A stretch of DNA of 64,000 nt from Exiguobacterium mexicanum (lineage in GTDB: Bacteria; Bacillota; Bacilli; Exiguobacteriales; Exiguobacteriaceae), in the NCBI RefSeq assembly GCF_005960665.1, contig NZ_CP040676.1, forward strand, positions 1,126,501 to 1,190,500, in the 5' to 3' direction. The position numbers were made by a program, and so were the translations under genes. The stretch's first letter is position 1. Every line of letters begins with the position of its first letter. Below, one piece after another: positions 43,896-46,408 of this stretch. Below the pieces are notes generated by a model. That model made no database searches and had not been told where the DNA came from. It saw only the letters and a list, made by a program, of their open reading frames with translations.

Positions 43896-44336
43896 TTAAA
43901 ACGCACGTTTGAAGAACGTGGACGCATAGTCGAGCGTCGTATGTAGCGTCGTCGCGAAAACGAGTCCGAAGAAGCATGCTGCCCCGTTCAGGTCGAGCCA
44001 CGATCTGATAGCTTCCTCATACGGCGTGACCGTGAGCAGAAGCGTGAGCGGGAAACCGAGATAGATGACCCGGATCAGATCGCTCAAGAGCGGAAAATGC
44101 GAGAATAACGACCGATGGGGCATAATCTTCACATAAGGGAGCCAAAAGCCCCGAAGCGGTCCCCATCGATAATAGGCGTCCGACTTCAAATCGAGATCCG
44201 GGGAGAGCCAGAACGTCCCGATGAGGGCGCCAAGCAGGAACACGGTCGGAACATCGATGTCAATAAAAGGCGTGGCAATCGCAAGAGCACCGATTGCCAC
44301 GAGATTCGTACGGGTATGTGTCTTGCCACTAGCCAT
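43896..44336 (-). CDS. DUF2227 putative metal-binding membrane protein
   Basis: A 146-residue protein with several hydrophobic segments (about 12-40, 85-105, 117-135). The family marks are [11 protein letters not shown] at the start, SPDLDLKSDAYYRWGPLRGFW and MPHRSLFSHFP, rich in His and Asp that could bind metal. Its ATG overlaps the lexA stop by one base (TAATG), without a clear ribosome site, so it is coupled to lexA and probably SOS-induced. The role is unknown. Confidence 0.82.
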   Translation of the reverse strand: MASGKTHTRTNLVAIGALAIATPFIDIDVPTVFLLGALIGTFWLSPDLDLKSDAYYRWGPLRGFWLPYVKIMPHRSLFSHFPLLSDLIRVIYLGFPLTLLLTVTPYEEAIRSWLDLNGAACFFGLVFATTLHTTLDYASTFFKRAF

Positions 44337-44956
44337 TAGTGAATCGTGCGGTATACACCGATGACCTTCCCTAAAATCGACACGTTATCGAAATACATCG
44401 CTTCGAGTTCGTCGTTCTCCGGTTGAAGACGCACTTTCGAAGCTTCTTTATAAATCCGCTTCACGGTCGCTTCACCTTCATCCGTCATGGCGACGACAAT
44501 CTCTCCATTGTCGGCCGTGTTCTGTTGACGGACGAGGACGCGGTCCCCATCCAAGATCCCCGCGTTAATCATCGAGTCTCCTGAGACAGAGAGCATGTAG
44601 ACGTTGTCGGAACCGACGACGTGAGCCGGGAGCGGGAAGTGTTCTTCCACGTTCTCGATGGCCGTGATCGGCGTACCGGCTGTGACTTTCCCGATGACCG
44701 GCACGTACATGACGGCATCGTGGTCTTCGACGACGGACATCTCTTCATCCAAAATCTCGATGGCGCGTGGCTTCGTCTTATCACGTCGAATCAATCCACG
44801 CTTCTCAAGACGGTCCAAGTGACCGTGTACAGTCGAGCTCGATGCGAGCCCGACAGCCTCGCCAATTTCGCGGACCGAAGGGGGATACCCTTTCGCCCGA
44901 ACCTCAGCTTTTATAAAATCAAGAATCTGTTGTTGTCTTGCTGACATTTTTTTCAA
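44336..44956 (-). CDS. lexA: SOS repressor LexA
   Basis: A 206-residue repressor-protease. N-terminal winged helix (1-65; [20 protein letters not shown]), self-cleavage site A93-G94 (VTAGTP), catalytic S128 (SVSGDSM) and K166 (ATVKRIY). It represses recA, itself and the divergent operon through the boxes reported here, until RecA filaments trigger cleavage. TTG 44956 is the likely start, since GAGGTGAAA is close to it and too far from ATG 44947. Confidence 0.96.
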
Positions 44957-45042: not shown

Positions 45043-45056
45043 CAAACATTCGTTCG
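45043..45056. promoter_or_regulatory. LexA box 1 in the lexA/SOS-operon intergenic region
   Basis: CAAAC-ATTC-GTTCG, one mismatch to the SOS consensus; nearest to lexA, likely autoregulation. Confidence 0.7.
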
Positions 45057-45066
45057 TTTTTTTTGC

Positions 45067-45096
45067 TTGACCGAACAGAAGTTCTTGTTTTATGAT
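45067..45096 (+). promoter_or_regulatory. predicted promoter of the small-protein/yneB operon
   Basis: TTGACC (45067-45072), 18-base spacer holding LexA box 2, TATGAT (45091-45096). Confidence 0.7.
45072..45085. promoter_or_regulatory. LexA box 2
   Basis: CGAAC-AGAA-GTTCT, one mismatch, lying between -35 and -10 where bound repressor would block polymerase. Confidence 0.82.
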
Positions 45097-45109: not shown

Positions 45110-45123
45110 CGAACAGACGTTCT
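45110..45123. promoter_or_regulatory. LexA box 3
   Basis: CGAAC-AGAC-GTTCT, one mismatch, just downstream of the predicted transcription start; spaced 38 bases from box 2. Confidence 0.82.
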
Positions 45124-45160
45124 CGAGAACGTGTATTCTTATTCCCAGGAGGCAATGATT

Positions 45161-45397
45161 ATGAGAGACACAATCAATGGAATCATCTTAGTCGGCATGT
45201 TGGCACTCGGTATGTTCGTATTTTTCGCGGTCGGAGAGCTTCGCGACAACGAAGCGGTCGTCGTGACCGAACAAAAAGTCGAACACAGTATTGAAGAAGA
45301 AGTTGCCTTGAAAGAGGCGGAGACGCTCGAAGCGCACATTCTCGCTAAGCGAGATGATGAAAAAGACGACAAGACGACGTGGTTCGCCGCCGAATAA
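45161..45397 (+). CDS. SOS-controlled small membrane protein in the yneA position
   Basis: A 78-residue protein with one N-terminal membrane helix (about 7-27, INGIILVGMLALGMFVFFAV) and a charged tail rich in Glu, Lys and Asp, predicted helical. It stands between lexA and yneB, where Bacillus has yneA (SOS division suppressor), but has no LysM domain and I see no sequence likeness beyond the single helix. ATG 45161 is 8 bases from AGGAGG; ATG 45155 is too close. Two LexA boxes at its promoter imply damage induction. Division arrest is a reasonable guess, not shown. Confidence 0.75.
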   Translation: MRDTINGIILVGMLALGMFVFFAVGELRDNEAVVVTEQKVEHSIEEEVALKEAETLEAHILAKRDDEKDDKTTWFAAE

Positions 45398-45439: not shown

Positions 45440-46114
<675 letters not shown>

Positions 46115-46174: not shown

Positions 46175-46408
46175 ATGCTAGCACCTGAACAGTTGGAGCG
46201 AATCAATTTCCTCGCCAACAAAGCAAAGACAGATGGTCTGTCACCACAAGAGATGGATGAGCAGCAAGCGCTGCGCCAACAATATTTGCAAGCGTTCCGC
46301 CAATCATTCAAATCACAAATGATGGGAATGAAGGTCGTCGATCCGGAAGGAAACGACGTAACGCCAGAAAAATTAAAAGATGAGCAGGAACGTTACCGCT
46401 CAGAATGA
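46175..46408 (+). CDS. ynzC: DUF896 (UPF0291) protein YnzC
   Basis: A 77-residue helical-hairpin protein. LERINFLANKAKTDGLSPQE and ALRQQYLQAFRQSFKSQMMG are typical of the DUF896 family, cytosolic, role unknown. It follows yneB as in the B. subtilis SOS operon yneA-yneB-ynzC. AGAGAGGGGGCG stands upstream of ATG 46175. A strong terminator closes the operon. Confidence 0.93.
   Translation: MLAPEQLERINFLANKAKTDGLSPQEMDEQQALRQQYLQAFRQSFKSQMMGMKVVDPEGNDVTPEKLKDEQERYRSE

Follow-up and report, generated by a model that had tools for sequence, protein, structure and literature searches.

A LysM-free membrane protein of 78 residues with a LexA-box promoter occupies the yneA slot of Exiguobacterium

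The window analysed here, a stretch of 64,000 nucleotides of Exiguobacterium mexicanum DNA, carries on the plus strand at 45161-45397 a gene for a LysM-free membrane protein of 78 aa (ATG at 45161, stop codon at 45395-45397; translation MRDTINGIILVGMLALGMFVFFAVGELRDNEAVVVTEQKVEHSIEEEVALKEAETLEAHILAKRDDEKDDKTTWFAAE). On one side lies lexA, which is transcribed divergently from the minus strand (44336-44953; TIGR00498, E=2.2e-75), and on the other yneB, coding for a resolvase-like protein on the plus strand (45470-46114; NF049883, E=6.9e-97), and these two matches confirm the assignment to the yneA slot made in the earlier note. A ynzC-like DUF896 gene (46175-46408, plus strand; PF05979, E=4.9e-30) and tkt, the transketolase gene, complete the order lexA (leftward), 78-aa gene, yneB, ynzC, tkt (rightward). 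The order in Bacillus is lexA-yneA-yneB-ynzC-tkt. A ribosome-binding site, AGGAGG (45147-45152, plus strand), lies 8 nt 5' of the ATG and also precedes the start in orthologues; the in-frame ATG at 45155 was rejected as a start, being too near AGGAGG and absent from most orthologues. The coordinates and strand noted earlier for the reading frame are correct, and its status as a coding, functional gene is backed by orthologues in 19/19 genomes and a dN/dS of 0.14.

The protein is laid out as an N-terminal membrane helix (residues ~7-25), a linker (26-43) and an acidic tail (44-78) that ends in WFAAE. Its AlphaFold model, of low confidence (mean pLDDT 63.6, pTM 0.28), has helices at 2-31 and 44-77 and zero strands. 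Conservation was followed in 19 Exiguobacterium genomes including that of the window, among them 15 named relatives such as E. aurantiacum, E. chiriqhucha, E. profundum and E. aestuarii. The search for orthologues by synteny that had been suggested as a check was positive in all 19, with the promoter nearly unchanged, and the 18 relatives showed 51-88% identity. The dN/dS given above is a median and denotes purifying selection, and 27 residues are invariant among the 19 orthologues. Ratios of non-synonymous to synonymous differences were 0.19 for the helix, 0.61 for the linker and 0.26 for the tail, which indicates that helix and tail are both constrained while the linker is far freer. All members have a tail of net acidic charge (-5 to -16), the C-terminal end of which is conserved as W-F/Y-A-A/S-E, while the linker is variable.

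The intergenic region between lexA and the 78-aa gene is nearly identical in 19/19 genomes. It holds a sigma-70-type promoter on the plus strand, TTGACC-18-TATGAT (45067-45096; -35 TTGACC at 45067, -10 TATGAT at 45091-45096), which is kept across the genus with the exception of one -35 element. Three LexA-type boxes, for which no strand is assigned, accompany it: CGAACAGAAGTTCT (45072-45085) in the spacer between -35 and -10, CGAACAGACGTTCT (45110-45123) 3' of the -10, both kept in 19/19 genomes, and CAAACATTCGTTCG (45043-45056) in the intergenic region on the lexA side, also conserved. A weaker fourth box, AGAACGTGTATTCT (45126-45139), reads CGAACATATATTCT in several orthologues. The LexA boxes reported in the earlier note are thus present, but its count of two was too low. 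The boxes at 45043-45056, 45072-45085 and 45110-45123 each have one mismatch to CGAACnnnnGTTCG; boxes of this quality occur in the window 10 times against 8.3 expected, so that single boxes are not significant and the weight of the case lies on their clustering and conservation. The perfect half-site pair CGAACnnnnGTTC has 55 strand matches in the whole genome against 17 for the reversed control, and the two perfect sites at this locus, 38 bp apart, are the only distinct pair in the genome closer than 50 bp. The promoter sequence suggests that the 78-aa gene may be controlled by LexA. The same type of box also lies close to, and ahead of, two ORFs that by eye read as a Y-family polymerase (G000:C4:767785, L217) and as ParE (G000:C4:1299760, L227), as would be expected if the genome has an SOS regulon.

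No credible match to the 78-aa protein was found in Pfam, NCBIfam, PHROGs or the PDB sequences; weak matches to AroM, PRK10481 and YidC families were far under the cut-offs and were rejected. A LysM domain was matched in neither Pfam nor NCBIfam, in agreement with the earlier description, and the two helices without a strand in the low-confidence AlphaFold model speak weakly against a hidden one. The YneA model NF010723 matched none of the 19 genus members at E<=10, the SosA model NF041581 matched none of them either, and a search with the SosA model gave no Exiguobacterium match. Against composition-matched shuffled controls, the YneA HMM score of the family had a median of 3.4 bits (shuffled median 0.1, 95th percentile 3.9) and the SosA HMM score a median of 0.3 bits (shuffled 95th percentile 2.3). 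Profile-profile comparison of the family with sister-genus YneA and with SosA gave probabilities of ~1% (1-4% for YneA). Since a helix of ~20 residues holds little signal, a remote common origin with YneA or SosA is still compatible with these values. Three apparent leads were rejected. The helix segment IILVG resembles IIFVG of Bacillus-type YneA not significantly more than shuffled controls do, the residues E37-Q38-x-x-E41 of the 78-aa protein, considered as a SosA motif, are not conserved across the genus, and a match of the family profile (E=0.0013) to a 61-aa gene of another genome (L036) in phage-like surroundings, not beside lexA, was attributed to chance.

The other genus of the same family, referred to here as the sister genus, was sampled with 19 genomes, of which 11 loci were read (L081-L091). 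The 78-aa family is absent from all 19. At the 11 loci the slot between lexA and yneB codes for a protein of 95-96 aa that combines a single helix with a LysM-like domain of diverged sequence, behind a LexA-box promoter of the same kind as that of the 78-aa gene. This protein matches the NCBIfam YneA model with E=7e-17; one test sequence lies above the curated cut-off and the most diverged one below it (55.9 vs 60 bits). The Pfam LysM model fails to recognise it. In the whole-genome search YneA was matched in 19/19 sister-genus genomes (E ~2e-14 to 3e-16), while in the 19 window-genus genomes the model matched only LysM domains that belong to ORFs of 199-648 aa, that is, no YneA was found elsewhere. 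As the sister genus keeps YneA in the slot and no relocated YneA was found, YneA has been replaced in Exiguobacterium or remodelled beyond recognition. Position, promoter, conservation and the sister-genus YneA in the same slot all lend good support to the claim that the 78-aa protein stands in for YneA. Its origin is a separate question, and either answer is compatible with the function proposed below. Descent from a true YneA that diverged extremely, its LysM lost or remodelled into a helix, has in our estimate only slightly less than an even chance against a new gene in the slot: slot and promoter are the same and the YneA-profile score is slightly above the shuffled median, but it stays below the shuffled 95th percentile, and the profile-profile probability is low.

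YneA, as known from Bacillus and the sister genus, thus shares with the 78-aa protein the lexA-yneB slot, the divergence from lexA, the LexA-box promoter and the N-terminal helix, and differs in having LysM, whereas the 78-aa protein has neither LysM nor a YneA family match. SidA of Caulobacter is a tail-less protein of 29 aa encoded at an unrelated locus. The closest precedent is SosA of Staphylococcus, far nearer than SidA, whose likeness lies in being a small SOS-induced single-helix protein (PMC13396833). SosA is a 77-aa protein with a single N-terminal helix and a charged tail but without LysM; its gene is divergent from lexA and has the same order of LexA boxes with one in the promoter spacer; both proteins also have a conserved alanine near the C-terminus. 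It is a proven division inhibitor with an external C-terminal part, in which the membrane-near residues are essential, while the extreme C-terminus and CtpA control turnover (PMC6851548). There is, however, no detectable sequence similarity between the two, scores being within the range of shuffled controls. The pattern E-Q-x-Y-E-x-T-D-H that follows the helix and contains the essential residues of SosA, with E, Q, Y, E, T, D and H invariant in sampled SosA, is absent from the 78-aa family, which furthermore differs in its acidic, predicted-helical tail and in having yneB as the next gene. The earlier suggestion of an undescribed division inhibitor is thus partly supported: a LysM-free, SOS-controlled single-helix stand-in for YneA is well backed, inhibition of division is a probable function, and the word undescribed has to be qualified by SosA.

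We surveyed the slot in 50 further Bacilli genomes, a sample biased by the fact that most were picked for a weak YneA score. In many of them the slot coded for a LysM protein or lacked a small membrane gene. Small membrane proteins free of LysM and preceded by LexA boxes were found in Staphylococcus (SosA), in three other genera of its family (f10; L189, L190, L191, L195; single-helix, 67-77 aa) and, as single-helix proteins beside lexA, in single genomes of two more families (f42, 82 aa, L197; f52, 91 aa, L176); the SosA model matched none of the f10, f42 and f52 proteins. The LysM-free form is thus recurrent and has a proven example in SosA, which places the 78-aa protein as a variant within a known kind rather than as something categorically new. 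In a further Bacilli family (f41; L178, L182, L186, L187, L235-L262) 27 of the 32 loci read have in the lexA-yneB slot, ~170-190 bases past the lexA start and behind 2-4 LexA-type boxes, a gene for a conserved protein of 30-31 aa, little besides a membrane helix, with the pattern M-F/L-x-K-x-x-K-x-D-x-F-Y-L-x-x-F-x-x-T-L-x-F-L-Y. It is SidA-sized, no description of it was found in the literature searched, the coverage of which was incomplete, and it may be a more interesting lead than the 78-aa protein. A ~37-aa single-helix ORF, VKRMQSFIRRTSIEEWAILVLFFVAVIAMLTVANIGF, was seen in the same slot on the divergent side of lexA behind LexA-type boxes at one locus of family f46 (L185), and at one locus of family f58 (L175) yneB lies immediately 3' of the LexA boxes with no intervening yneA-like gene.

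We propose, with a probability of roughly 0.7, that in this Exiguobacterium lineage the 78-aa protein serves as the DNA-damage checkpoint protein in the place of YneA, inhibiting septal wall synthesis in the manner of SosA and without LysM. Position and analogy are what suggest inhibition of division. DNA damage would lead to cleavage of LexA and free the promoter with the box in its spacer. The protein would then be inserted with its N-terminus inside and the acidic helical tail outside, which is the most likely topology by analogy with SosA and YneA and is compatible with the charge pattern. The septal wall synthase to which the helix may dock is most likely FtsW: YneA reaches the septum via binding of its helix to FtsW TM7, and for SosA the same contact has been modelled with low confidence (PMC13396833). 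The membrane-near part of the tail would obstruct septal wall synthesis, as has been proposed for SosA, and no peptidoglycan-binding LysM would be needed, in contrast to YneA. During recovery a membrane protease such as CtpA would remove the protein via the conserved C-terminal WFAAE. CtpA resembles Tsp, which reads the C-terminus of its substrates, and a comparable recognition of YneA by the PDZ domain of CtpA has been proposed (PMC6051672); a CtpA-type protease is encoded in the genome of the window (371 bits). Points against a SosA-like reading are the lack of detectable kinship with YneA or SosA, the missing essential motif of SosA, the low AlphaFold confidence, and the finding that the helix of B. 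subtilis YneA does not inhibit by itself, LysM wall binding being required (PMC13396833).

Other kinds of small SOS proteins with a single helix are known, and the protein could accordingly be an SOS-induced membrane protein that acts elsewhere than on the divisome, for instance on membrane potential or in envelope stress, with a TisB-like effect. We consider this unlikely, as the gene sits just where the sister genus has its division inhibitor and takes that inhibitor's place, and its product is set apart from pore-forming peptides by the long, conserved acidic tail. Slightly less likely still is a division inhibitor with a cytoplasmic tail directed at FtsZ, EzrA or another inner part of the divisome; there is little positive-inside signal on either side of the helix, and the tail carries many charges, but a tail of net acidic charge is easily exported and those of SosA and YneA lie outside. 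A functionless, decaying remnant of yneA, which the full YneA of the sister genus might bring to mind, is very improbable and already contradicted by a gene intact in 19/19 genomes under purifying selection, with its invariant residues and conserved promoter.

The arrest of septal wall synthesis by small SOS membrane proteins is puzzling, as the LysM of YneA is essential in B. subtilis and SosA has none. Tentatively, with somewhat less than an even chance of being right, we suggest that the lexA-side slot of Bacilli is filled by several scaffolds of different structure that have nothing in common but a membrane helix and control by LexA: with LysM (YneA), with LysM-free tails (SosA and the 78-aa protein) or nearly helix-only (the 30-31-aa protein). 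If all of these stop division, the contact between helix and FtsW would form the invariable core, with wall binding as an optional extra, contrary to what B. subtilis YneA suggests. Exiguobacterium presents a natural swap: behind similar LexA-box promoters, one of the two sister genera has a YneA with LysM and its counterpart a protein free of LysM, so that exchanging the two would put the role of the wall-binding domain directly to the test.
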